Shown: positions 5,678 through 60,500 of the stretch, piece after piece
Layout: each line of letters begins with the position of its first letter
Position numbering within the stretch: position 1 is the stretch's first letter
Origin: Sphaerolaimus hirsutus
Taxonomy: Eukaryota > Nematoda > Chromadorea > Monhysterida > Sphaerolaimidae
Direction: 5' to 3'
Length of the DNA: 64,000 nt
NCBI GenBank assembly: GCA_964036195.1
Contig: OZ038450.1
Coordinates: forward strand, 1,118,701-1,182,700
Made by a program: the position numbers and the translations under genes
Notes under the pieces: generated by a model
Database searches by the model: none
Told to the model about the DNA's origin: nothing
The model's input: the letters and a program-made list of their open reading frames with translations, nothing else

Positions 5678-5683
5678 TTTATT
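5678..5683 (-). promoter_or_regulatory. Candidate polyadenylation signal of XBP1
   Basis: AATAAA on the minus strand, about 250 nt downstream of the XBP1 stop codon at 5934-5936. It is the nearest good hexamer I found in the 3' flank; its use is inferred from position only. Confidence 0.35.
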
Positions 5684-5933: not shown

Positions 5934-8900
5934 TCAAGCCATGCCATCAAACAGGTCGGTAAAATTTTCCGCCCAATCAAACTCAGCCAAGGTATTACGC
6001 GCGAGAAAATCGTCACCAAAATCGACCAAACACTCTGAATTCTTTTTGTCATCGATGAAACTTTCACTGATCAAATCCAAATCGAGCAGCGGCGGGTCGC
6101 CGGCGGCCGGGAGGGGGCTGCCGCGCGGCACGGACCTGCCGCCGGGACTGCCCAGCGGCGCCGCCAGCGACACGTACGTGCCGCTGCAGTTGGCCGCGTC
6201 CGCGCTCGGCTCATCCTCGTCCGACGTGACGTTGAGCGGCGAGAACGGCTCCGCTGTATCCGGCTGGCTGGCTTCGGGGATTGGCATTGGCAGCTGCTGC
6301 AGTTGCCGCGAGTCGTCGATGGTCACGCTGTCGCCGGGGGACAAGTAGTCGAGAAAAGCGTCGCCCGAGCCGCCGCACTGGCTCAGTGGGCGAGCGCGCG
6401 GGCCGCCTTCTGGACGACTTGCAGCGGCGGCCGGTCGGGCGGCAACTTGTCGCTCAGACGGCGCGACAGCAGAGACACCAGCCGCTGCTGTTCCGTCTCC
6501 GGCATGCGCTCCTCCAGCGCCGTCAGCGAGCTGCGAGAGGGAAGTATTTTGATACAAAGTAGTGCACTACAGGTTGGACAAGGTTCAAACGGGATTGACT
6601 TTTCGGTATCGGGATCGACTTTTTTAGATTTTGGGGGTCGGGACTGCGTTTGAACTCTAGCTTGGACTACACATTCTGTCTATTATATGCGCACCCACCC
6701 AAAAAAAAGTTTTAGTGGATTTTTAGCCGTTTATGCAATATGTATGCTGTCCTAACTTATTATAACTTTCAAGTAAAACACAGTGAAATTTCCCGCTGCG
6801 AAAAAAACGTGAAATTTCCGGCTGCGAAATAACGTAACTTAAATTTTCAGTATGTGGTGCACCCCAGACAGGTTTGCACTTGACTGCACTTGCAGAAATG
6901 CGTCCAAAGAACGTTCGAATGCTAAACTGAATTTACCTGCCTAGCGCCTAGCGCCAAATTTACGGTCACATACACAGTGCGCAGTTTCATTCTCGTAACC
7001 GTGCCGGGCATGTCACGTTATGATTAAATGACTCTAAACTAGGGTTGGCCGACGTTTTTTTAAACGTTTTATTTAAAAAACGTTGTGTTTTTTTAAAAAC
7101 ACGAGGTCCGAAACGTTTTATTTTTAAACATCGGGCGAAATTTTTAGTACTAAGCACTAGGTATTTTGCAAAATTTTTGCGTGCAAGCGCACAATTTTAC
7201 ACACAAATGTTGCTTTCATTGGTTTTGTAGCATTTTTAGTATCAAAGCATCGAATTCTATGTGCTACCATGGGTAAATAAGCCGTCATATGTTGCTGTAG
7301 CATATAATATTCAGGTAATGTGCTTCCATGCACCTCCAGTGTGTAACATCACTCCCAAAGTAACAACCTCCTTTTATAACCTTGATTGATCACTATTCCG
7401 TGCCAAACTTCACTTGAAGTCACGAACATTCGACTATAAGGCGATATATGAACATGTCGACAAAAAATGGACATTTTTGACACAAATCACCACTTATAAT
7501 GCTATCCCATGGCTCCACAGCCATTATATAGTCATGTATAACATCACAGAGTATTGTCACTTGTCTGACATACCTATATATGTTGACCCAGGAACATATA
7601 TGGGAGCTTTAAAAAAAATGTTTTTAATAATTAAAAAACGTTGTTTTTTTAAAAAACAGCGTAAAAAACGTTTTTTTTTCAACTCTACACTATACACAAA
7701 GTTTTCAACCGCAAACGGAATTGAAATGAGATGCCAGTCAACTGCAGTTGACGGAGATAGAAATAAGTCATTCCGGTCAACCCAAATGCCTTAAAAGAGA
7801 ATTTACAAGTTGTCAAATTTTCAGTTGAAAACTAGTGCGCACAGGCACAAACCCTGGCCAAAACACACCTGGGGCTCAATCCCTCCAGCCTGTGCAAAAC
7901 ACTGGTCAAACTGAGCGGTGCCTGCCAAGAGCTCGTCCAATATCCTCTGCAGTTCGTGGTCTTGCTCGAACGGGCCACACTGAGCAGTAGGGCGCACAGG
8001 GTCGCAACCAGCGGTAGGGCGCCCGGGGCCTGCTCCCTCTGCTGGGGAACACTAATGAGTGCTGCTGACTCAAAGGCGGTAGGGCGCACGCCACTGCTGC
8101 TGCTCATTTGTGCCGATTCCTGGGGGGGGTAATTCGATTGCATTGAGGTTTTGTGCAGGGCGAAAGCAACGTGTATAGGTTAGATTTATTTATGTATGCT
8201 GATTGAATTGATTTTAAATTTTCAGGATTCTGTCAGCTAGAGGATTCTTTCGGATCCAGTCAATTCAATTATAATAGGCTTCGAATTTTTCAGTTCGTAA
8301 ATAAAAGAATGTTTCCCGTCTAACATGCATAAATAAAATAAAGAATAAATTTTGGAAGTGACAAGAAAACAAGTAGCAATTCCGTAATTGGACAAGCAAA
8401 CCTTTTATTTCTATTTCTTTCCCATTTTTCTTTCACTTGATTTTTTACTTCCCATTTCACTTCTCACTAATCAAATGCTTTTTGACTACTCCACTAGCTG
8501 AATCGGCCCCAAATACATCATATATGCTATCAAAACCAAACCGATCATTCCAAAGGTTCAATACAATACAAAGAAATCCATGAAATGGAAGAAACGACCC
8601 CCTGCCCAACCTGCTGCTTGGCCTTCCTCAACTGTTCCAATTCTGCTCTCAACCTCCTGTTCTCATCCTCGAGCGTGTGATTGTGCTGGCGCAACTGCAC
8701 ATTCTGCCCGTCCAAGGTGCTGTTCTGCCGCTCCAGCTGCGCCAACGACCGCTCCATGTCCACCATGAGCAACTTCTTGCGGTCGCGCGCCGTTTGAGCG
8801 GCCATGCGGTTCTTCAATTTTCTGTGGAGGTGTGGAGGTGATTTGTGGGTGTTTGTAGGTGATAGGGAGTGTTGTAGAATGGCGCTACGCAAGATCATAT

Positions 8901-10147
8901 TTTGAGATGTGTGTCACAAGGTTTTTGGTTCCGCAGTTGCGATGACAATATTCCCAAAAATTTAGTTTTTGGAACAAAAGTTTTCCATCTTTTTTAACCT
9001 CGACCACAATATCAAGCACCTCAAAGATCGATTTCCTGATCCCGAGAAATGGATAAAATTGAACGAAATTTTTGGGGTGGGGGTTCTAATATAGGTTTTT
9101 CCCAGGTCAAATAGGATAAAAACGTGTGTAAAAACCTTAAGAATAGGTCTACAACAACTTCATGGGGGCGGGGGTGGGGGGGGGGGGGGGTCAAGCGCGT
9201 AATTTAGCTAAAACATTAGCCTCAGAATAGATGAGAGGGTCTGGGATAGATAGCTGGTCGATTTCCGGGGTAACCCCCCGCCCCAACCACTCACATAATT
9301 CCCAATGCCAACACAACCACCCAACCCCCAACCGGCCAACCTCCTATAGAGCTTCTCCTCCGAAGTGAGATGCGTGAGTCTCTCTCGTTTCCTGGCGGGC
9401 GCGTCGAACTGGTCGGAGTGCCACGCGTCCATGAGCATGCCCGGGCGCATCGAACTGGCGCCGGAGAGACTCGACCCGCACGAGGACACGTTCGACGGGG
9501 CCGGGCTTACCGGGGCTGCTGGCGCTGATTGTTGGGTGTGAGCTCGCTTGCCCAGGGTCACCTGGGTGGGGGTGTTGCAAGGATTGAAAGTTGCATTCTG
9601 CAAGTTGCACTCCCCGACCCTGCAAAATGCCCTGTAAAATATCAAATTTCATGCAATGCGTCTCAAGTCACGGAAAATGCCCTGGAGAATGTCAAATGTC
9701 ATGCATGTCTAAAGTTAAATTCCCTGCAAAATGGCAAACTCGTTTGACATTTTACGATGCATTTTACAAGGCTTTGGATGAAATTTGACATTTTAAATGG
9801 TCTGAGAGTAGCTCTTGATTAATTATGATTTAACATTCCTGGTTACTAATATTAGTACCGCAAGCACCCCGAAAATAACTATTGAACCGACCGCAAACCA
9901 TTTCACGGTTTCAAACCAAACCTTTAGCACGAAATCCCCAAACTTCTCGGATAGACGCCCAAAAAGCCTCACAGACCTGGGCAACCGCAGGAAATTTGGC
10001 GCCGGCGCCGAGCCCCTGCGGCTGTCTGATGGTGTAGAAGCCGGGCGCGTGCTGCTTGGGCGGCCTGGACAGCACCACGATGGTCCTGGTGCCCGGCGCC
10101 AGCTGGATGGCCCCCGGCGCGCACCGCGCCTTCCCGGCTTGCGGCAT
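5934..10147 (-). CDS. Xbp1: X-box binding protein 1 (XBP1), bZIP effector of the unfolded protein response
   Basis: Exons in transcript order: 10147-9977, 9561-9341, 8821-8611, 8119-7869 and 6530-5934, all with AG acceptors, GT donors and matching phases. After removal of the 23-nt IRE1 intron (8042-8064) the spliced protein is 475 aa; without removal the frame stops at 6383-6385, giving 333 aa. Exon 2 ends PARKRERLTHLTSEEKLYR, the diagnostic XBP1 lead-in to the bZIP. Exon 3 holds the basic region (NRMAAQTARDRKK, residues 135-147) and a leucine zipper to about residue 196. The unspliced frame has a hydrophobic patch (ALPLVATLCALLLSVA) like the membrane-targeting HR2 of XBP1u. The spliced frame gains an acidic C-terminal region ending AENFTDLFDGMA. 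XBP1s is known as a nuclear activator of ER-quality-control genes. Length is close to insect XBP1. The start is the first ATG in the GC-rich first exon. Confidence 0.93.
6383..6530 (-). CDS. XBP1 unspliced-isoform tail, alternative frame of exon 5
   Basis: If the 23-nt intron is retained, exon 4 joins this exon in phase 2. The frame reads SSLTALEERMPETEQQRLVS and continues through LPPDRPPLQVVQKAARALAH to a stop at 6383-6385. The XBP1s frame reads the same bases as a low-complexity Ala/Gly/Pro stretch. Translated overlap is about 48 codons in two frames. The unspliced frame looks more protein-like (charged, helical) than the spliced one, suggesting selection on XBP1u here. Confidence 0.65.
7040..7690. 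repeat. Fold-back element with AAAAACG ends
   Basis: It begins AGGGTTGGCCGACGTTTTTT with internal TTTAAAAAACGTTG blocks, and ends AAAAACGTTTTTTTTTCAAC with the inverse blocks TTAAAAAACGTTG. The middle is AT-rich and shows no gene. It lies between XBP1 exons 4 and 5. Confidence 0.55.
8042..8064 (-). other. 23-nt non-canonical XBP1 intron excised by IRE1
   Basis: On the minus strand two hairpins carry the IRE1 loop consensus CNG/CNGN. The first has stem GAGT/ACTC around loop CAGCAGC (8061-8067). The second has a six-pair stem GTTCCC/GGGAGC, one pair being G-U, around loop CAGCAGA (8038-8044). Cutting after the third loop base of each removes exactly 23 nt. This shifts the frame from the short hydrophobic tail to the long acidic tail. 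Hairpin geometry and position just after the zipper exon match known metazoan XBP1 mRNAs. Confidence 0.93.
9614..9815. repeat. Fold-back repeat, TGTAAAATG family
   Basis: It starts ACCCTGCAAAATGCCCTGT and ends GACATTTTAAATGGTCTGAG, an imperfect inverse. Internal GTCATGCA and GGCAAACTCG motifs match the other family members. It is located in XBP1 intron 1. Confidence 0.6.
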
Positions 10148-10470
10148 GGCTCTTTGATCTGGGCCTTTTTTGGGCACTTTGAGAACGACTTCCGGTATGT
10201 TGTCCGGCGATTAGTAGCTTTCAGTTCATCTCGGACGCGTCGCTTGTGTTTTAGCTCGGGAATTCAATGGAAATAGACTGTAGAACATGGCGGCCGGGCG
10301 GTCGGCTACTTTAGAAACGCTGTAAAGCGGATACACGTGGAAGAACAAAGGCGTGTGCGACGCCGATTGGCGGCACGGCGCTGCGCCCGGCGCTCATTGG
10401 CCAGCCCGCCGGCAGTGCGCACGTTGCGTCAGCCGACACGCTCTGGCGAGTTGGCACGGTGCCAGGGAAA
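10148..10470 (-). promoter_or_regulatory. GC-rich promoter region of XBP1
   Basis: CpG-rich sequence directly upstream of the XBP1 start codon. On the minus strand there are two CCAAT boxes (10366-10370 and 10396-10400) and a CACGTG core (10334-10339). An ACGT core downstream of CCAAT recalls the ER-stress element, but the spacing (25 nt) is not the canonical 9. XBP1 induction by ATF6 through such elements is known in animals; here it is an inference. Confidence 0.5.
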
Positions 10471-10587
10471 GAATCGATTTGAACTATACGCGCCCTTGAT
10501 GAGTTGGAACCTGGATGGGCGGCTGTAAATATCTAACATTGGATGACGAAACAAATTTTGACGCTGATGCAATACACAACGCATAAG

Positions 10588-11008
10588 CAGGGGCCAGTTC
10601 CGCAAGTGGAAAAGTTAAGAGTTAAAAGTTAAGAGTTGAGTAAAATGACAAATGGCAAGTTAAGAGTAAAGTTAAATGATTAAGAGACAAGAGTAAATTT
10701 AAGAGTAAAGTTAAATGACAAATGATTAGTTAAGAGATAAAAGTAAAGTTAAGAGTCAAGCAATATGTTTTTGTATCCAAATCTTATTTTTCGACATAAG
10801 ATTTGGATACGCAAAAATAAGATTTGGATACACTTGCTCGACTCTTAACTTTACTCTTATCTCTTAACTAATCATTTGTCATTTAACTTTACTCTTGTCT
10901 CTTAACTCATCATTTATCATTTAACTTTACTCTTAACTTGCCATTTGTCATTTTACTCAACTCTTATGTTTTAACTCTTAACTTGTCCACTTGCGGAACC
11001 AGCACCTG
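10588..11008. repeat. Fold-back repeat, CAGTTCCGCAAGTGG family
   Basis: Left end GGGGCCAGTTCCGCAAGTGG is followed by iterated AAGTTAAGAGTTAAAAG units. The right end carries the inverse (TCTTAACTTT units) and closes CCACTTGCGGAACCAGCACC. At the centre is a hairpin TTTGTATCCAAATCTTATTT / AGATTTGGATAC, also found in the 1826-2215 element. Confidence 0.8.
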
Positions 11009-11399: not shown

Positions 11400-13640
11400 G
11401 AACTTGAGTTTTTAGGGGCTGAGTTTTCAATTCAGGGTTGAGTTGATGGGTGTTTATAAATTAGGGTTGAGTTGACAGAAGTTTAAAAATAAGGGGCTGT
11501 TGACACAAGTTTACAAATTAGAGGCTGAGTTTATGGGAGTTGAGTTGATGGGTGTTTGCCAAATTTGGGGCTGAGTTTATGAGAGTTAACAATAACATTA
11601 CCATAATCCTTCAGTGAGGCCCCCGGGGCTAAAAAATATAAATTGTGATATGATGCATTTGTGGGTTACTGATTACAATGATTTGAAATATGCACTCCAT
11701 TCTGACAGTACATTACCATAACCCTGAAATTGAATCCCTGGGGCCAAAACTTTCAAATTGTGAAATGATGCATTGTGGGTTTCTAATTGCACTGATTTGA
11801 TATATAATGCACTCCATTTTGACACTACATAACCCTGAAAACTACATGACCATAACCCTGAAAATGAACCTCTGAAACCAAAAACTTTCAATTTCTGAAA
11901 TCATTCATTCTTGGGTTTCTGATTGCACTGATTTGATATATAATGCACTCCATTTTGACACTACATAACCCTGAAAACTACATAACCATAACCCTGAAAA
12001 TGAACCTCTGGAACCAAAAACTTTCAATTTGTGAAATCATTCATTCTTGGGTTTCTGATTGCACTGATGAGTTGATGGGTGTTTGCCAAATTAGGGGCTG
12101 AGTTTATGGGAGTTAACAATAACATTACAATAATCCTTCAGTGAGGCCCCCGGGGCTAAAAAATATAAATTGTGATATGATGCATTTGTGGGTTACTGAT
12201 TACAATGATTTGAAATATGCACTCCATTCTGACAGTACATTACCATAACCCTGAAATTGAATCCCTGGGGCCAACTTTCAAATTGTGAACCGATGCATTG
12301 TGGGTTTCTAATTGCACTGATTTGATATATAATGCACTCCATTTTGACACTACATAACCCTGAAAACTACATGACCATAACCCTGAACATGAACCTCTGG
12401 AACCAAAAACTTTCAATTTGTGAAATCATTCATTCTTGGGTTTCTGATTGCACTGATTTGATATATGCACTCCATTTTGACACTACATTACCATAACCCT
12501 AAAAATGAACCCATGGGGCCAAATACTTTCAATTTGAGAAATAATGCATTTTCGGGTTTCTGATAGCACTCATTTAAAATATGCACTTCATTTTGACACT
12601 ACATTACCATAACCCTAAAAATGAACCCCCTGGGCCAAAAACTTTCAAATCTTTCAATGATGGATTTGTGGGTTTCTGAGTGTAATGATTTCAAATATGC
12701 CCAGGGCTTCAAAAATTAGAAATTGTGAAATGATTCAATGTGGGTTTCTGATTACACTGATTTGAAATATGCACTCCATTTTGACACTACATAACCCTGA
12801 AAACTACATAACCATAACCCTGAAAATGAACCTCTGGAGCCAAAAACTTTCAATTTGTGAAATCATTCATTTTTGGATTTCTGATTGCACTCATTTGAAA
12901 TATGCATTTCATTTTGACACTACATTACCATAACCCTAAAAATGAACCCCCTGGGCTGAAAACTTTCAAATCATAAAATGATGCATTTGTGGGTTTCTGA
13001 TTGTAGCAATTTCAAATATGCACTCCATTTTGACACTAAATTACTAAAACCCTGAAATTGAACCCCTAGACCAAAAAATTTCAAATTGTGAAATGATGCA
13101 TTTTGCAGGTTTGTAATTGCACTGATTCGAAATGACTCAATTTCAACTCTACATTACTGTAAGCCTTAAATTGAAAATTGAAAATAAATTAGAAATTGTG
13201 AAATGATGCATTTCTGGCTTTTTGATTGCCTTGATTTGAAATATGCACTTCATTTTGACACTACATTACCATAACCCTGAAAATGAACCCCCAGGGCTAA
13301 AAATTTTCAAATCATAAAATGATGTGTTTGTGGGTTTCTGATTGTAGCAATTTCAAATATACACTCAATTTTTACACCACATTACTAAAACCCTGATAAT
13401 GAACCCCTGGGCCCAAAAACTTTCAATTTGTGAAATGATGCATTTGTGGGTTTTTTATTGCAGTGATTTGAGATGTGCACTCCATTTCTACTCTACATAA
13501 CCATAACCTTTAAGTCTCACCCCTGGTGCTAAAAAATTGAAGATTGTGAATTGATGCATTTGTGGATTGATGCTAGAGATTATTTCAAATATTCATTCTA
13601 TTTTGACACTACATTACCATAAACCTGAAAATGAGTTTAC
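11400..13640. repeat. Satellite array, 115-140 bp units with a 527-bp higher-order repeat
   Basis: About sixteen degenerate units each contain GCACTCCATTTTGACACTAC, CCATAACCCTGAAAATGAAC and TTCAATTTGTGAAATGATGC in that order. A marker (GAGTTGATGGGTGTTTGCC) at 11542 recurs at 12069 with the same downstream unit order, indicating a roughly 527-bp higher-order duplication. No coding potential is supported. Confidence 0.85.
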
Positions 13641-14728: not shown

Positions 14729-16465
14729 TATACAATGAGTCGCATGATGTCATATCATGCACGCTGTATCCAACCCGTAGAACTCTGTTTTGGTGACTCG
14801 TGCTTACGCATATACGGAATGAAACTATTCAATTGTGCCCGCACAATTCAAACCCCCGTCAAAGTGTAGTTGAGTTTTGTGCATGATGCCATCCAAGCGT
14901 CGTCTGGATCTGAATAAATACAAAGCGGGAACGTTTTCTGAATTCAAAATATTGAACGTAACAAGTTTTCGTCAAAATGAATCGATAGCGTGTAACTTTT
15001 CTAAATATGAATTAGATTAAACCTAGGTAAACGTATAATCAAAAATTTGCAGCACCTATCGGCACAAAAATTGTAGTAAACGAGTGCGTAAAGAACAGCA
15101 CATTTTTATTTTCCTTCTTACTATCTTTATATTTTCTTTTTTACTAAATTCCTTTCTCGTTCGCTCTACAAGAACAAAATATAACGTTCCAATTTTGTAG
15201 AATGATATGTCCGTCGACTATACATATTGACATATTCACAACCCACTGCACCGTTTTTCTACCGTACTTAAGATGTATCGCACTTCGCTGTTCAGTAAGA
15301 TGTTGAATTTCATTGACGCTCAGCGAAGGGAAACATAAGTGGACCAAACCTGTACAATATCATGTCTGCCGACTTTTTTTTAAAAAGAACGCGCTGCCAC
15401 AAAAATGCGAGCGGAATTATTTCCCTGTGGCCTCAGTTTGACAAAATGTGATAAAATAGGTTTGCTACTGTGATTGATAAAAATATTTACCCAACACTAC
15501 TGTCCCTAGGAGGAATTCACTCCCTTTTCAAAGCGTAATCTCAATGTGGCACAGTAAATGATATATTTGAGGCGTCCAATTCTAGAAGTCGACAAGTCCA
15601 AAAAATGAAAATTCCGAGTGAGGCCCGGAATCTTGGGCTACTTCCGCACATTTTTCATTATTTTCCATTACTTTTTTGACCTCACGTGCTAAATCCTATA
15701 TATATACGATAGTGTGAAATTTGACATTTTAGGGGAACTACGTTCTCATGTCAACTCCGAATGTGGTCAAGTGACAAAAAGTAAATAGTGCCAAAAAAAA
15801 ACTAATGAGTGAGAAAAATTCGATAATAAAAATACTTGTCGCTTGCTCAACATAAACTTTTTTACCACTTTCCATTTTGTTGTCATTTGTCCACTGGGAG
15901 TGCCTTTCTACAATACAGATTTCCAGTACGTAGAAGGTTGTTATCAACCAATTTCCATAACGAACAGAACGATTTTAAAATCTAGTCAGTATTATTTTCC
16001 GATGAATTGCGTATGTATTCGAGATTATTTTATAAAAGCAAAATATCGGCAAATGTTGAAGCTGAGCGAGATGGTCGGTACGGCGGATTTGAGCGATTTA
16101 ATTGGTGAGTGGGCGGTGAAACATGAGGTATTACCTCACGCGGGTTTCTCGGTCGTGCGGGTGCACAAATTAGGCCGGTATTTACCGTGTCCTGTGTCCC
16201 AAACAAAAACGAGAGTTTTTTTTGGCTACACATTTCGATTGAAAGATTTGTTCGCGGTAGAGGTATTTATATCGCGAAAATATTTGACACCACATGTAAA
16301 TTTGTTGTGGAAAATACTTATCAAACGAAATGGGACGGTATTTTTAACAGTTATTTCGATATCGAATTATAAGTATACGTTGGAATTTCGAAATTGCTGG
16401 AAAATAGTTTGGGCGTTAAACGACAAGATTCTATGTCATTTAGATCCTCTATCTTGTAGGATTAT
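14729..16465. other. Intergenic DNA upstream of the 16.5-kb gene
   Basis: No gene or RNA is recognised up to about 15840. From 15843 a frame stays open on the + strand into the downstream gene, but the 15843-16465 part has no recognisable protein features. It may be a 5' UTR, an upstream exon or chance. Confidence 0.35.
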
Positions 16466-19291
16466 ATGGCGCTCGTTGAGGAAGTGGAAAACGAAAACGA
16501 CGGTTTCGTTGACACTTCACAAGATTCCCAAGACCCTGCGGGCACAAAATCGCAGCCGCTGCGACGTTTGGGTCGCAAATCGGGCAGCTTTCGGGTGCTG
16601 GCGAGCAAAGGCAGTGCGGTGCAAAGCGGAGGACCGAAAAAGCGGAACGCTACCACGGTTAGTGAGACAATGGGTTGGGCATCTGAGTACTGGTGAGAGG
16701 CACTCAAGTGTCAGTTCCAGTTCTCAGATGTCATTGAGTGTCGATATGTTTTCTTCATTCATTGGACCTTCTTTGTCACTGTGGTGTGAGTATCATCCAC
16801 CTCGCAGTAATGGGCTTCACTTGTGGAGCTGTATATATGTCCATATGCGGGAAATTATATATTTAGGCACAAAATACTGTATTATAACATGGTACATACA
16901 GTGTGTCCATTTTAGCACGGTATTCGTAATTAGAATGAATAAGTCGAATACGCATTACTGCGAGGTGGGTCTGACTAGGCGTACATCTATGATCCACATG
17001 TCCAAAATGCAATTTGCCGTGATACAGGCGCTCTCGCATAAAACGAAGCGTGAAAAGATCTTCACGGCAAACTGCTCGGAAATGGACATGGAATTTGAGG
17101 GGCTCACAACGTCCCCGATGGCGACGGCGGAAGACACTGTCGCTATGAAGACAAAGTTCGGCACACTGACGCCGCGCAAATGCGTCAGCTTCGTCAATAA
17201 CCTGGTGGATACCAGGTCGGGCAAGTACGTAGAGCTGGCGGAGCAGATGAACACGATGGACACGTTGCTGTCCAAAGGTCATATCAGTGTAGGTTCTGGG
17301 GCATGTTTTTGTGATAACGATTTTGATATATGCCCGATTAATATAAAACAGAATCAACTCTATACTTTTGAACATATTATCGGGTTAAATTGTATACATC
17401 ATCTCAAATTATTGCGTGGATTGACAATGGAATGCTTATCTACAGTAGTTCTCTACTACAACATGACAAAACCCTGTGTTATGCTAAATATACATTCCAC
17501 TTCCTCGCAGGCCGAATCCCTGGGCGCATATACATGCCAAACCAAGGAGATCCTTGCAAAATTGAAGCATGCCATTTATTTAAGTGGTCAGATCGACTTG
17601 GGGCAGGCAATGATTGCCGAGATGATGCTGCTCGAATCACAGCGCGTGCAGTCAGAATTATTTGACGAGTTAAAAGCGCAGCGCGTGATGATCGAGCGAG
17701 TGCAACTGAGTTTGCAAGCCAAGGGGGTGGATCTGACGGCCGATGTGAACAACATATTTATGTTGAGTAGCACCGAACCACAAGATCCGATGTCCTTCTT
17801 TTATCGGACTGACTTCCTGGCTTTTGGCATTCGTTGGAAGTGCTTAATGTGCGCGCTGATTTGGCACAAAGGTGAGACTTTGGGCGTGCCGGCTCTCAAA
17901 GAAGAAGCCATAAGGTGCAACATTTCCTATACGGAATATGATCCCTTGGCCCCCTTAGTCATGGCCAAGTGCTGGGCAGAGTGGCGCAACGAGCAGTGGA
18001 AATTGTATTACGACGATACCGACGACAATCAAGCCGTCTCATGGTATGATAAGACAATTTCTGGCGATTCTGCTCGTATGCGAAGTACACCGGCCTACCG
18101 CTCCCTAATAGCAGTTTTGCAAGTGTGCGTAAAGGGTAACAAGGCTTTCGCCATGTACCTGAAACTGACAGGGGAGCGGCAAATTCACAATGTGGCACAC
18201 GCGCATCGTTACCTCGGCAACGGCTTTAATAAAACTGCGTGGGATGGCGTGACGAAATCGAGCGATGGCCGGAACATGAATATGTACGGCCTTGCGTCAG
18301 AGGAAGTCCACGCCTCCCCGGAGTTTACCTCTCTGACTTTCACGTCGGAAGAGGAGCAGGCGTACAATGCCGAGTTTGTGGCCCACGAGGCAGACAAAAT
18401 GTGGACCGTTGGCCCCGGGATATCGGAGCACAATGAAAGGGCCAAATCCATCCACCAAGGTAGGTTGGGTGGGTTGCATAGTTTCAGTGTGAAACGTGAG
18501 CAGGGCTTGCCGCATATTCCGATAGTGTGTTGCGTGACCCAGCCATTTTTTCCGGCACAAGAGGGGATCGCACACAACGCGTACGCCGAGGCTATAATTT
18601 GGAGGTTAGGCAGAGACATCGAATCAGCTTTGTCACGGGTCTGCGCCAATATACCTGGCGTGACCATCTGCCAACCCCTGAATTATATATTGCGAAACAA
18701 AAAATCCGCAATTATTCCGCACTTGATGGGTGTGGATACCTTACGCCTATATGAAGGGATTGTAGGCACGGACGGCATCCACCTGAGCAAATACGGGGAG
18801 TCGTTCTTTGGGCGCTTATTGGCACGGGAGTGCGCGTTCGCGCTGGAAGGTTACAGCGCGCCAACGCTAGCCAGGTGGGCGAAAGTAGATAGCGTGCTAG
18901 ATAATATAAGTAGTATAGATCACTTGTCATGGACACATGATTGTATTAAATCTCACTGTACCCTATCTCATACAGGTGGCGCCAGATGTGCGGCTCAACC
19001 GATCCCGGTCTTTGCAAAGAGGGGCAAAGGGCGGTGGCAGACCTGTTCACCAAGGCGAAGGAGGTATGTTTTTAAGTTCCCGTGCGTAAACATTGGGCAC
19101 TGTGTGAATGCATCTGATTTGAATATTACTAAATCGGTGCAGGAAGTTCGCATAAGCGTGGCCGCGGTGATCGTGGAGTCCCGTACGGGCGCGGAAATGG
19201 CGGTGCGGCGCAAATTCGTGGCGCCGGGGGTAGCCGAAACAGTTCGGTGGGCAGCAGGATCCGAGCACAGAGGAAATCTGCAGCAGAATAA
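16466..19291 (+). CDS. Unrecognised six-exon gene with coiled coil, DGIH motif and Arg/Gly-rich tail
   Basis: Exons: 16466-16657, 17028-17288, 17511-18459, 18526-18884, 18976-19063 and 19143-19291. Every junction has GT/AG and matching phase, giving 665 aa. The start MALVEEVENENDGF is acidic and is followed by a basic Ser-rich stretch. Residues 152-235 are heptad-like and rich in Leu/Met/Glu/Gln, a likely coiled coil. Residues 236-467 are a well-behaved globular region I do not recognise. Residues 547-558 (VGTDGIHLSKYG) resemble the catalytic Asp-x-x-His block of SGNH hydrolases, but no clear GDS block is visible. The tail (588-665) is RSRSLQRGAKGGGRP, then HKRGRGDRG, an RGG-type RNA-binding style. 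A variant using donor 18875 reads a different tail and runs to a stop at 19541-19543 (710 aa). A single unbroken frame 15843-19304 also spans exons 2-4. The gene may belong to a retroelement or be a host gene; I assign no function. Confidence 0.55.
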
Positions 19292-19407
19292 CCGGTCCGG
19301 GTGAGTTAATGCCGGGTCAAATTCCGTACATTCTGCTATTTTTCATAATTTTACTATGTTCATTAACACTGGCTATGTATATTTTGGTAATACAATGTAT
19401 ACCTCAG

Positions 19408-19543
19408 GGGTGCCATGTCAGCCGGCGCCGGCAACAATCGCGGAGCGCACGGCGGCCGTGGTCGCGGCGGCCGAGGTGGGGGCCCACCAGGAGTTCCGCC
19501 TGGCGGCAGCGGCAAAGGCCTGTGGTATGTCTACCACGAGTAA
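19408..19543 (+). CDS. Alternative last exon or separate short Gly/Arg-rich ORF
   Basis: It follows a clean ACCTCAG acceptor at 19407 whose partner donor GTGAGT is at 19301. It contains an ATG at 19415 and reads MSAGAGNNRGAHGGRGRGG, then a Gly/Pro stretch, to a TAA at 19541. In the variant model it is the C-terminus of the preceding gene; in the main model it is 3' UTR or the start of another frame. Third codon positions vary freely in this frame, which favours it over the Ala-rich shadow. Confidence 0.4.
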
Positions 19544-19689
19544 AATGGGAGCAAGTAGCTCGGCTGCAAAGTGATCTGTTATTTAGGATGTTTCAGCGTG
19601 CGCGCCTCTGTTTCAGAAGGCGCGACATCCTGAATTATTTTTGCATTGGCTGCGCCACCGTGTTACTTTTTTGCTTAGTTAGCAATAAG

Positions 19690-21690
19690 TTTATATATGG
19701 GGTAACTTCACAAGGCATGGCAACTGGATTATATATGGTAGTTCCAAAAATGTGCCTTATGACATCTGTGGATAATATGTTTATATTGGCACTACTTTGT
19801 GAAGAGACGCCATCCTGCGTTCTGTTCTTATGTCCGAAATACATGGCAATGTGTGCATCAGTCGGCAGAGTGGCAATACACCCAGATAAAAGTAAGATTC
19901 TGCACTTCCGTCGCAAATCCAATCCAACATGCCGTTGGGCATTAGGAAAGGATAAGAACGGTAGGCTCCAATACATATCTGAGGTCGACAAGATAAAGTA
20001 CTTAGGTATTACACTAACGTCGGAAAGGGATATGTTTCTTAGACAGCGTCAATTGCTGCTCCAACGAGCACAGACTGCTGCCATAATGGTGGGAGAATTA
20101 GGAAAACTGTCATTGCGTCCATTTTGGGCAGTGAACAGATTGTGGACGCTATACGCAATGACAAAAGTATTCTATGGTGTAGAAATCTTTGGCCTGCCAA
20201 AGCAAACTTTGGCAAAACTGGTTGGCATACAAATGTCTGTTTACAGAAAGGTATGTCATTCACCTCTGCACCTTTCAAACAGGTGCCTAGCTATTGATGG
20301 TGATGTTACAACAATGAAAGCCTGGTATACTAGCATAGTTGTTGGTCACTGTTGCTACTTGGAGAGTGATAAAGTAAGCTCTACCACTAAGGTAGCATTT
20401 AAACTCTGGGGTAAGACTAAGTCGAACCAACCACGGCGTTTTAGTCCTGGGCGGGCTGCTGCACTACTTAATGATGCAAATATTGATCCTATGTTGGGCT
20501 TAAAGAGTATTAAATTGCTAGCCAAACAACAGGCCTGGAAAGATGCATCGTTGGGCTCTGTAAGTATGTCTTGATCACGGGTAGAATGCTATCTGGGCAT
20601 ATGCCCAACCCCCTTAAACACCTACGAAATATATATTGATGATCTACCGTGGGTTTTTACCCGACACGGTCTGTTGCAAAATGCGCAACAATTCAGATTA
20701 AGTAGGACGGGGAAAAAACAGTGGACTTCTTGCAAATTGTGTAAAAAATATGGCCATGATTTCTGGCCAACATTACAACACTATTTGTACGGGTGCCAAG
20801 ATATGAGTATTATCTATTGGCGTGAGAAGCTACTAAGGGAGTTATACTCTGAGTGCTGTGAACAAAAATGTGCACAAGAGATATGTTCTGTGGATCCGAT
20901 ATGTCGCTTTGCACAGATATCACGAGCTATCTGTGCAAAATCGCGGAAACTGATATCGACCCACATCACAGCATTAGATAAGTATATTACTAGCCTCTGA
21001 TCATGATCAAGTAGGTATCTATATGCGTATCCAAATGGTCGCTGTTTTTTTTCATACATCTCTGATAATAGTAATATGTATATTTATACGGCGACAAGTA
21101 GGTTAAAATAGTATATCACCTACATTGTGAGCTAGAGGACATTGTATTCACTTATAATCGGACAAAGCATGGGATTTTAACTTCCACATGCAGCCCGATA
21201 GTTCATTCAGTGAAATACATTCTCTAGACTCACTAGGCCAAATTTGAATACAATACATAATTAGTAATCATTGTACTGTCTCTTAGAAAAACCAGGGCCC
21301 TGGTATCGTAGACGCTCTTGTTTATATCTTGTTATAGAACGTGCGCCTTAGTGTTAAATCTAAATTTATGTTACTAGTTAGTTGAACTTGTGAAGGGATT
21401 AGGAATTTCCTCTCTTATATTCTTGTTATCACTTACTATAAAGTTCTGTCTATTTTGTGCAGTGGTATCGTGGTAGTTTGCCTTAAACATCGATTGTATT
21501 CGAACAACTATTACCGGTATTTTAAAAACAATTTATGGTTCTCAACTATTGCTGTTCGTTCAATATGAAATGTATTTTAATTATAATATTGCTCTCATCT
21601 TTTTCTTTCTTTTACCTGTTGTTAGTATATGCCCGTGACTTGTAGAGCCAGTAGCGGTACGAGTGTTAAATAAAAATAAAATAAATAAAT
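19690..21690 (+). mobile_element. Decayed non-LTR retrotransposon (LINE), 3' half
   Basis: A broken reverse transcriptase frame up to 20574 keeps SVGRVAIHPDKSKILHFR and EVDKIKYLGITLTSERD, the post-catalytic RT blocks of LINEs. The position of the FADD box reads MFILALLCEETPS, so the catalytic aspartates are gone. A stop interrupts at 20572. A second frame (20674-21000) holds the C-terminal CxxC...H...C knuckle (CKLC, then TLQHYLYGC). The element ends in an A-rich tail of TAAATAAAATAAATAAAT type at about 21665-21690. The copy is inactive. Clade is not resolved. Confidence 0.75.
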
Positions 21691-27644: not shown

Positions 27645-30600
27645 TCAACTGGCGCTGAGCACGTCCATCTGCATGTGGTTGGCTGCCTGGTCGATGCTCG
27701 CCTCCCCGCCCGCGTCTTGCGAACGCCGCAGCTTGGCCGAGAACGAACGGCTGTTGGTGCGCGGCCGCCCGCCCGCCTGCCCGCCCAACTCGTTTCTGTG
27801 TGCCAGTGTAACTCGGGGGTTTTGTTGTTCTGTGACGGTTTTGAGATAAATGTAAATACAGCAATAACAGGTTCAGAGGTACTTAATGAAAGTCTGCTGA
27901 AGTTCTTTGAAATTTCTGTTCTTTTATTTTTTTTCAGTGAATGTTTTGCTGTTTATTGCTGATCGTTTGTGCTCTTTTTCGAAATAGATCATCGCTCTCA
28001 AAACAGGAAACTATCATCCATCAAAACAATAAAAACATAAAATACCACTGTGGATTAGATTTTGGGGAACCAAAATGCCTGTGTTCTCTTTCGATGCAAT
28101 CCTTTTCTTTTTATCGGTACCACAAAACAAAGTTTAAAAACAACACAACAACCATGAGCCCGTGCGCACCTTCCCTCTGCGTGGGCGCCATTCCTGGGCG
28201 CCACCTTGACCAGCACGGCGCCGTACTCGGGGGGCAGCGCGGTGGTGGGCCGGCCGGCGGTGGACACGAGCACGTGCCTGCCCGACGACGCCGGCTGCTG
28301 CGGCCCCGCCCCGCCGCCCGACTGCAAGCACTGCCGCCGCTCGCTCAGGTGCGGCGTGCACGACGCAGAGTGGTAGGCTGCGTGGGGGGCACAGTGTGCA
28401 GTTTTGAATACGATCCATGGTGCATACAACCGGGGACAGTCCCAGATTCTGTAAAATGCCCTACAAAATGTCTAATGTCATGCTAAATTCCATGGAAAAT
28501 TTCAAATGTCATGTAAAGCGTCTGACGTCATGGAAAGTAGCCTGCAAAATCGCAAACGAGTTTTCCATATTACCGGGCATTTTCCGTGACTTTAGACACT
28601 TTTCCGGATGTTTAACACAATGCATAACATTTGACATTTTACAGCGTGCGGGACTGCCCACGGTATTCTTCGATACCCATGCGTTTTATTTCCCGTCCCA
28701 ATTTGTTGTGTGTCTGTGCCAAATGGTACAGAACGCCTGCAGTCAAAAGGTTTCACACCCAAGTGCAGACGTACCCTCAGCGTGCGGTATGAGCGCGTCG
28801 GGGGAGCGCCGCCCGTCCGACTTGGGGGAGGCAGGCGACGCGTCCGCTTGCGGTGGGTGGTGCACCTCGGCCACGGACTGGTGCTGCAGCACGGCCAGCT
28901 CGACGGGCGCGCCGCTGGTGGCCGCCCAGGGCCGACTGCACGCCGCCGGGGCGCTCGCGTTCGCCGACGACGCCCGGCCGGCGCCCTTGGCCGCGTGCTG
29001 CCGCTGGCTCGACGAGTGGCACGCTGAAGCCAAGCTGCGGCAGCGCGACTCGTTGCCCTGGCGCGAACTGGTCGAGTTGCGTCGACGCTGGCCTTCTGGC
29101 TCGCCGTGCACCTGCGTTTGGTATAGGCAACTAGAGGTCAGCGACTCCAAGAGGACATTTTGAGTCATTTTCACTCAATATCGTTAATTTTTATACCTTT
29201 TTGCCAATTTCCAGCTTCAAAATCCAATTTTGGGCAGTATAAATGCATAGTTTTATACCAAAGTTTAAAGCTATTTTTCACATACTTTCAGTGATTTTTC
29301 CCTCCGGTGATTCAGTGATTTCTGCTTTCTACACACAGAACAAGTCTAAATTCTTAACCACCACAAACCCCCACCATACAAGTAATAAGTAACTTTCCTC
29401 TGTATAGAAGTTTGTAAAGACCCATTTTAGAAAATATCAAAACAAAAAATTGCCTCCATTAAAACACAGCCCACCAACCGTCAAGGGAATAATATTGAAT
29501 CCAGTGGCAGTCTGCTCGGTGAGCACCTGGTGCACCACGGCCACATTGTCCCTGCCATCACTGAAGGGGTGCCTTTCCCTGGGCGGGTGTCTGCCCTCTG
29601 TGTGCTCAGCTGCGCTGTTCGGATAGGACAGGTCCCTGTGATACGAGTCGCTGTTGGTGGCGCTGTTGTGCCTGCTGCGCGGCCGCTGCGAGTGTCGCCG
29701 CTGGGCCGGCTGCGCGGCGGCAGAGTCGTCCTCCAGCTCCTCGTCGTCGTCGTCGTCGTCGATGATCTCGTCGTTGTCCTGGCTGCTGGCCGAGCCCAAC
29801 ACCCCCGCCGGGCTGGCCGCGCCCCCCGCCGCCCCCGGACTGTTGCCGCAGGTCGCCGCGCGAGAACACTGCGTCGTATTTGCGTGCCATAGAAGTTCGG
29901 TAATTTTCGAAAAATGTAAATAAACATAATCTCAGAGTTTCTCAAAAATATATAGGTAATTCAATCTGTCACAAGAAACACAAAAAATATTTGAAAATCT
30001 TTTATTTGCTATATTTTGCTTATTTGCCAGTATCAATAACTTGTCCTGAGACCGACCCGCCAGTAATCAAATATATAAAACCCTGTGTCCAATTTAATGT
30101 GGCAGACCAAGTATAAAGGTAAAAAAGATATAAAATCAATGCGAAAGCCCATGAGCCGAACGGACGGTATAGCCGAAGGCCTTGAGTATGTCCATCTTGC
30201 ACATGGGACAGGTGCGGTGCTCCAAGAGCCAGGGGTCGACGCAGGTCTTGTGGAAGACGTGTCTGCAGGGCAGCGAGCGGACCATGTCGCCCACGGCGTA
30301 GGGGTCGATGCACACGGGGCAGTCCGTGTCCAGGTCGGCGTCGCCAGCGCGCACCACGCGGGTGGGGATTTTCGTGAGCGCCTTGCGCGCCGCGTTGAAC
30401 AGACGCCGCTGCAATTGGTCGCAATTTCCGTGGTCGGCGCTAGTTCACTGACAGTGAACCGGGGGTCTCCTAGATTTCCGCCCCCGGGGGGTTGGATAGA
30501 TAGCAAATCGCTCCTCCGATAGATAGCTGAAAAATTTTCTGGGGGGGTTTGGGGGGTTCGCGGGGGTTCAATATATAGGCTTTTTCGGGGTGCAGAAGGA

Positions 30601-57500: not shown

Positions 57501-60500
57501 TCAGCTGGCGAAGGAATGGTGCCATTCCTTTCAAAGGCGCCACTGGGCGTGACGCTTGTCGGTTGGTTCAGAATTGCGGCCAAAGCATTGGCCACACTAA
57601 CCCTACACCAGTTGACAACGACACAAAATGTCAACTGGTTCCGTTCCCAATTCAAACTTTCTGATGAGTAACACTACGCATTATTTTTTCAACACTTTCG
57701 CACTGAACGTCGTTCGTTGGCCCGTCAGCAAGCTTTCAATAGGGATCGCAACCAGTTGACATTTGGTGTTGTTGTCAACTAGTGTGCATGAGACCGCTGT
57801 AGTGTAATAAAGGCGTCAATAAGTTCTGGCGCCGTTGGCGCCTTGCGCTATATTTTCGGAGGGCGCCAATTTTTCCTGGCGTTTTTCCATCACAAAATAG
57901 TAGCAATAGGGGGGAGGGTAGGGTGTCAAATTTCCGTTTCCGTTTTCCGTTTCCGCCTTTCCGCAGGAAAATTTTTTACCTTTCCGTTTTCCGTTTTCCG
58001 GCAGCCGAAAATTTTTTACCTTTCCGTTTTCCGTTTTCCGGCAGCCGAAAAATTTTTACCTTTCCGTTTTCCGTTTTCCGGCAGCTGAAAATTTTTTACC
58101 TTTCCGTTTCCGTTTTTCCGGCCCATTTTTCCGTTTTCCGGCTGAAAAATTTTTACCTTTCCGTTTCCGTTTTACCAGGCCATTTTTCCATTTTCTGGCT
58201 CGATTTTCAGTATTCTGGCATTTTTCCATTGTTTTTCCAATCTGTATTTATCTTCAATTGGCTCATCCCATTGTGTTGTTTTTGTCTCTTGGAGCAGCAT
58301 TGACAACTGGGATTTCAGGGTCAGTGAAACAGGTGCTGTGAACCCAATTGGGTCATATGCTGACACCAATAATTTATTCAAGTTTCATCTGGTTGGTGTT
58401 GTGATGCTGTCAATTTGCAATTTTGGTGTTGATATTGCCAGCATGTCCGTTTGGTGATTTTATTTCATGCCCATTACTGCAACAATTTTATTCACCTTTG
58501 GACTCCTGTCGTTTTCTGCTATTTCATTCATGACTGATCTGGAGTTTGACAGCCATTCCCTCATGTTCATAGAACATTGGTCAAATAACGCTTTGACTTT
58601 GTAATATAGTTCTAAAGCTTCAACTTCATTCGTGACACTCATGATGAAGTTATCGATGTAAATGTTGTTTATTATCATCGCCAACTGGTTTTGTTCCCCT
58701 TCATTTTCTTCATATTCATTCATGTTGTTTATTGTCACATTTAAATGGTATTTTATGACTGCTCCCAAAATTGCTGGGCTGCAGACAAGTTCAAACAGTA
58801 CGCGTTTAAAACAAAGTACTATTAAGTTATTTTCAGTTACTGGTTTTGAGGCATCTTTCAACCAGAAAAATTGTGTGTAAATAGTCTCTAGCTTGGTCAT
58901 GCAATCCTATTTGCAAAAATGCCTTTTCATTATCGGCAATTAATGCTAGATTGCCTGCCCTGAACCTCAGGAGTAGGCCCAGTGTTAATGGTGTTGTAAT
59001 TGGTCGTCTAAAAAGGCACTCGTTGAAACTGGGCTTACCTGCCAACCCATCGTACACGATTCTGCATGATGTCGATTTGCCCAGCGTGATTACTGGCTGG
59101 TGTGGCAGGTAATGAATCCCCTTGTTGTCTGTTTTGTCGTCACAGATCTCAATTATTCCCTTTTCTAGTTGGTCATCCAAAACTTTCCGGTATTGTTTGA
59201 ATAAGTTTGGATCTTTGTTGAATCTTCTTATCAGTGATTTAAACCACACCAAGGCTTCTGCTTTTCCCCTGGGGAAGGTTACTGATACTCTCTTTATACG
59301 ACCAGTCAATATAGTATCGTTTGTTGTTGTCATTGAATTTTATGCTATTTATTATCATCTCCTCTGCAATGTTGTCATCAATTGCATAGGGGTCATCAGT
59401 GACTCCCACTGCTTCTAGACTGTGAAATTGTCATAGTGTTTCCTTTCCTATGGCCACTATGGCTACTTTTTGATGATTTTTTGTTGGTTCAGTTAAGCTT
59501 GAACTACAAGTGAAGTTACAGGCATGATCCATAGTTGCAGAATGTACAGCTACCACAATCAAAGCCAAATAGGCAAACCTGCATGCAGGTTTTCCTTCTG
59601 CAAATTTGTCTATTACCGTGCTAATTTCACTTTATTTTTTTCCGTTTCCGTGAAAATTTTGCTTTCCGTTTTCCGTTTTCCGGCATTTCATTTTTCCGTT
59701 TTCCGTTTTCCGGCCAACAATTTTTTTTTACCTTTCCGTTTTCCGTTTTCCGCTGAGTGAAATTTTTTTACCTTTCCGTTTTCCGTTTTCCGGCAGAAAT
59801 TTTTTTTTTACCTTTCCGTTTTCCGTTTTCCGTAAAGTGAAAAAATTTTACCTTTCCGTTTTCCGTTTTCCGTAAAAAATTTTTTTTGACACCCTAGGGG
59901 AGGGACTGCACGAGAATTACACAAAAAGCACACATTCATGGAGACAGACAGCAAGCGTAAAGAAAACATGGATTATATAACTTGCAAAGTGTTATTTTAG
60001 GTCAGAAAAACGAGGGGCAAGCGTGGTATACCGCATGGTTTGCACAGAATGTTATCAGTTACCATATTTTAATGAAAAGGTTCATCAGATATGTACATGC
60101 TGTGCAAAGTTTTGGGGACGAAAAGCGATCTATTTGTTCCGAGGTGCATATTTCATTTTGAACGAGTTTTCTACAGGACATTTTGCAAATCGTTAGACAC
60201 TTTGCATGAACTTGACATTTTACAGGGGCTGGGACCTGATAGACTTCAGTGCAAAGTAGGCAAATACAAAACAACCCCAATAAAAACAAACGGCAACACA
60301 CAAACATAGACGCGGTTGCAAAAACACAGCATACCTTCAACCCCGTCGAGACACTGGGCGGCCGTGTGCAGCAAGTCGGCGAAGCTGCGCGCCAAGTCCC
60401 TCTCGTCCGACGAGCTCGGCACGCACGCGTCATTGTCATTGTCATTGTCATTGTCGTAATATTCTTCTGGTTCTGTTATTTTGTCAGTGTGGATTAGGTA

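Follow-up and report, generated by a model that had tools for sequence, protein, structure and literature searches.

The minus strand of the analysed stretch of DNA from the nematode Sphaerolaimus hirsutus (64 kb; hereafter, the window) almost certainly carries an ordinary metazoan XBP1 gene with an IRE1-type intron and a frame switch; what is confirmed here is a known, widely conserved mechanism in an ordinary gene. The model of this gene consists of five exons, all on the minus strand, and all four of its conventional introns have GT..AG borders. The coding part of exon 1 (9977-10147) starts with the ATG at 10147 and ends before the donor GT at 9976; the basic region begins in exon 2 (9341-9561) and the remainder of the bZIP domain is encoded by exon 3 (8611-8821). 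Exon 4 (7869-8119) contains the predicted IRE1 intron, downstream of which two reading frames run in parallel into exon 5 (coding part 5934-6530). The unspliced frame ends first, at the stop codon 6385-6383, which makes 6383-6530 the dual-coded part of exon 5, and the spliced frame continues to the stop codon 5936-5934; beyond it, an AATAAA at 5678-5683 is a candidate poly(A) signal. With these borders, removal of 8064-8042 turns a frame of 333 codons into one of 475, exactly the two totals that had been claimed for this gene from the letters of the sequence.

The features by which XBP1 is recognised were found in this gene, namely, an XBP1-type bZIP domain, hairpins with CNGCNGN loops after the zipper, an HR2-like hydrophobic region, and a 23-nt intron, not a multiple of three in length, without which a longer C-terminal frame is open. 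The Pfam family PF07716 (bZIP_2) matches residues 124-176; the E value is 2.8e-10 for the unspliced product and 7.8e-10 for the spliced one. In a search of the unspliced protein against solved structures, the best match (E = 0.0037) fell in the bZIP region, and XBP1 did not occur among the names of the 12 sequences with E of 1 or less. For comparison with human XBP1, the residues of the human sequence were checked against the numbers given in PMC6624018. By BLASTP, identity to this sequence is 49% over 114 aa for the spliced product and, for the unspliced one, 37% over 188 aa. The shared elements include the basic region (RKLKNR-AAQTARDRKK), RPxA and ESAAL beside the cut, which are likewise kept in the unspliced product here, and the placement of the hairpin pair just after the zipper, adjoining ESAAL. 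Beyond the cut, 327 of 1000 shuffles score as high as the unspliced tail against the human tail, and 892 of 1000 as high as the spliced tail; since neither tail does better than shuffled sequence, it is position and frame that support homology in this part of the protein, and not the sequence.

The hairpin pair itself is as the earlier note described it. On the minus strand, the two 7-nt loops read CAGCAGC (8067-8061) and CAGCAGA (8044-8038), they are borne on clean stems of 5 bp and 7 bp, the latter with one U-G pair, and the two cut points lie 23 nt apart. Specifically, folding and alignment to the Rfam family RF04247 delimit a 5' splice-site hairpin at 8056-8072 (stem UGAGU/ACUCA, 8072-8068 paired with 8060-8056; loop CAG^CAGC) and a 3' splice-site hairpin at 8031-8051 (stem UGUUCCC/GGGAGCA, 8051-8045 paired with 8037-8031; loop CAG^CAGA). 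The 5' stem looks the same as that of human XBP1. Folding of 8022-8082 returned both stems in the minimum-free-energy as well as in the centroid structure. When 20 to 400 nt of flanking exon were included, the pair probability was at least 0.96 throughout both stems except for their outermost pairs (0.81 and 0.35). An additional C-G pair forms within each loop with a probability of 0.63-0.65 and, because it belongs to the minimum-energy fold, the modelled 7-nt loops are not fully open. The 61-nt stretch as a whole is not unusually stable (z = -0.10; of 200 shuffles, 95 reach an equally stable fold).

Cutting after the third loop base by the published rule, in keeping with the two frames, predicts an IRE1 intron at 8042-8064. 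The human XBP1 intron is 26 nt long, as compared to 23 nt here. One expectation that had been attached to this intron, that reads from stressed animals would lack exactly 8042-8064, has to be relaxed: both cuts are flanked by CAGCAG, so that the deletion can be placed in seven ways (from 8067-8045 to 8061-8039) with an identical product and, therefore, cDNA reads by themselves cannot prove the exact intron borders.

The use of two frames in one stretch left a trace in the base composition. GC at the three codon positions amounts to 0.59/0.51/0.82 before the cut. For the overlap, the unspliced reading gives 0.64/0.55/0.82 and the spliced reading 0.83/0.64/0.55, and past the unspliced stop the values of the spliced frame are 0.63/0.48/0.76. 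The codon-position signal, hence, follows the unspliced frame through the overlap and the spliced frame again past the unspliced stop; in sliding windows it is noisier and fades in the last two windows. A position-specific base model was trained on those parts of the gene that lie outside the overlap; when it was applied to the overlap, the unspliced frame scored +15.3 bits, the spliced frame -26.5 and the third frame -46.1. By exon, the unspliced and spliced frames scored +14.7 versus -21.3 bits in exon 5 and +0.6 versus -5.1 in exon 4. This codon-position signal, obtained from a single genome, suggests a real protein under constraint in the unspliced tail, in line with the title of a 2006 study by Nekrutenko and He listed among the references of PMC2329644. 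The mere openness of the frames was also considered as a sign of constraint and was discarded: when the spliced frame was recoded synonymously 5000 times, 31% of the recodings kept the unspliced frame open for as long as observed, and the spliced frame stayed open through the overlap in 10% of 5000 recodings.

The same signal could be read differently, namely, as a consequence of a mismodelled exon 4/5 junction or of an assembly indel near 6385 that shifts the apparent signal of 6530-6386. In this stretch the spliced frame, which reads rich in Ala, Gly and Pro, carries no coding signal and the unspliced frame carries a strong one, as the exon 5 scores show, and the donor reads gtgtgt, so that a donor two bases further is possible. 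However, the modelled junction has a good acceptor, acttccctctcgcag, and a good donor, CCCCAG gtgtgt; an exon 5 with a single frame would make the unspliced product the longer one, against the known switch; and in the present model each signal-bearing stretch is used by exactly one isoform. We consider such an error in the model or the assembly unlikely, and retain the dual-frame exon 5.

How often would a hairpin pair of this kind arise by chance? In first-order Markov simulations, in which a pair was defined by two CNGCNGN loops, a stem threshold and starts 10-60 nt apart, stems of at least 5 bp yielded no pair in 100 simulated 64-kb minus strands, and a pair in 0.09% of the 20,000 sequences simulated for the joined exons (from the ATG to 5600). 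With stems of at least 4 bp, there were on average 0.01 pairs per simulated strand, and 0.475% of the simulated mRNAs contained one. These figures are too low, because the real strands are richer in single hairpins than the simulated ones: with stems of at least 4 bp, 14 single hairpins were counted on the plus strand and 10 on the minus strand versus a simulated mean of 2.87, so that single hairpins of the IRE1 type are roughly four times as frequent in reality as in the simulations. When stems of 3 bp were admitted, two pairs were found on the plus and three on the minus strand of the window. One of the pairs on the plus strand, at 6793, with stems of 4 and 5 bp and a spacing of 26, is false; it arises from a 26-nt tandem duplication (6775-6829) antisense to intron 4. 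A duplication that mimics IRE1-type hairpins is a caution for motif-only searches.

The Rfam family RF04247 ("bZIP non canonical Hac1/Xbp1 intron") matches 8019-8087 of the minus strand over the full span of its model, with E = 0.0049 for 64 kb, at the expected place and on the expected strand; up to E = 0.05 the window holds no other match to this family; the score of the match, 35.5 bits, is below the gathering score of 41. The 13 remaining Rfam matches in the window, to miRNA and snoRNA families, are all under their gathering scores and presumably reflect chance or inverted repeats. The earlier note had held that the hairpins fix the identity of the gene; the identity as XBP1 stands, and what does not stand is that the hairpins would fix it by themselves, because there is a false pair in the window and the match to RF04247 falls short of the curators' threshold. 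The hairpin motif alone is no proof; its location inside the XBP1 gene is the proof.

It could still be argued that the hairpins had formed by chance in some other bZIP gene and that the frame switch is coincidental, inasmuch as pairs of CNG loops can be accidental, as at 6793 on the plus strand, the RF04247 score is under gathering, and open second frames are not rare among recodings. Yet pairs with stems of at least 5 bp are scarce among the simulated mRNAs, the pair found here lies just after the zipper and beside ESAAL, as in human XBP1, the 5' stem of which also looks the same, and the shift opens a second long frame that bears its own codon-position signal past the unspliced stop; such a coincidence seems exceedingly improbable. 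That the locus is a pseudogene or a broken copy of XBP1 is hardly credible either, given four GT..AG introns, both frames open to their ends, a third-position GC that is high before the cut and again after the unspliced stop (0.82 and 0.76, as above), and an AATAAA past the stop. We thus keep to an ordinary XBP1 gene.

The unspliced protein contains, at residues 235-250 (7973-8020, minus strand; coordinates assigned by hand), an HR2-like hydrophobic region with a Kyte-Doolittle value of 2.4 over 15 aa. This is the best 15-aa value after the cut in the unspliced frame, as compared to 0.83 in the spliced protein and to 1.86 for the human HR2. In mammals, as described in PMC4138184 and PMC6624018, the mRNA reaches the ER by means of HR2 together with an arrest peptide at the C-terminus, and the two elements are reported there to be conserved in Drosophila. 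The Drosophila Xbp1 resembles the gene described here in having HR2 in the unspliced protein and an IRE1 intron (PMC4138184).

A C-terminal arrest peptide of the vertebrate/fly type was not recognised here. After the cut, the unspliced protein of 333 residues has tryptophan only at positions 262 and 266, shortly behind the hydrophobic region. Its last 67 residues contain none, in contrast to the human arrest peptide, and nothing near the unspliced end corresponds to the human W249 and W256. Nor was the pattern W-(5 to 7)-W found in any minus-strand frame of genomic 8070-5600, intron 4 and exon 5 included. Drosophila is reported, in PMC4138184, to keep the leucine and the tryptophan of the human pausing region, whereas here there is no tryptophan beyond residue 266. 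Such a peptide, reported for vertebrates and fly, is an accessory feature, however, and does not define XBP1. One could speculate, with rather little confidence, that the unspliced XBP1 of this animal ends in a constrained tail of its own, encoded by some 48 codons of exon 5 with the codon-position signal in the unspliced frame and lacking the arrest tryptophans, and may hold the mRNA at the ER via a different pause signal or via the stronger hydrophobic region alone.

Among the published systems close to this one is XBP1 of Diaphorina citri, for which PMC13027231 gives a sequenced 23-nt intron, the CNG'CNG motif, five exons and an ORF1 of 347 aa, and according to which most of the pest species compared have a 23-nt XBP1 intron. 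The gene described here likewise has five exons, a 23-nt intron and CNG'CNG loops in two stem-loops, with 333 aa in place of the 347 of ORF1; the junction of D. citri was confirmed by sequencing (PMC13027231), whereas the one reported here is predicted. The crustacean XBP1 of Litopenaeus vannamei also has unspliced and spliced forms and undergoes splicing on infection (PMC3634759). According to PMC4891664, IRE1 cuts two 7-nt loops after the guanosine at position 3, and in metazoans RtcB ligates after this cleavage.

The following sequence of events can be envisaged. Ordinary splicing of the five exons would yield an mRNA that, as long as it is unspliced by IRE1, would be translated into the 333-aa bZIP protein, the hydrophobic region of which probably brings the mRNA to the ER. 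Upon ER stress, IRE1 would cut both loops after the third base, that is, after 8065 and 8042, and a ligase, presumably RtcB as in other metazoans, would join the exon ends. The loss of 23 nt would shift the frame and give rise to a 475-aa protein with a new C-terminal region of 255 residues, which is expected to act as a transcription factor. That the switch is a working one, as the earlier note had it, goes beyond the sequence; the IRE1-dependent switch is predicted to work in this animal.

The surroundings of the gene are described here for completeness. Upstream of the ATG (11100-10147), no consensus of ERSE-I, ERSE-II or UPRE was found; this region contains CCAAT at 10542, 10400 and 10370, ACGTG at three places, and CCACG at 10340. 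A long inverted repeat of TTAAGAGT-like units, discerned by eye at 10600-10960, is probably a small transposon and has a sub-threshold match to MIR868 in Rfam; further upstream, tandem repeat arrays with units of 116 to 136 bp occupy 11709-13634. On the plus strand, 15813-21000 holds open frames of 1163, 446 and 141 aa that look retroelement-like by eye; the first two have no Pfam family above the cut-offs. A RING-H2 pattern is seen at 30199-30321 on the minus strand, and the open frame 31314-30805 has a membrane-spanning-like stretch; by eye, this appears to be a goliath-like E3 ligase gene. A fragment at 58833-59339 of the minus strand resembles, by eye, a BEL/Pao reverse transcriptase, with no Pfam match at E 0.01. 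Ten neighbouring open frames, out of 82 of at least 110 aa, were searched against Pfam; none of the ten has a family above the curated cut-off, and two have weak matches below it.

The codon-position test employed here offers a simple way of telling, from a single genome, which of the overlapping XBP1 frames bears the coding signal. The 475-aa product of this gene would escape a plain gene finder, and the XBP1 gene described here provides a usable marker of ER stress for this animal.
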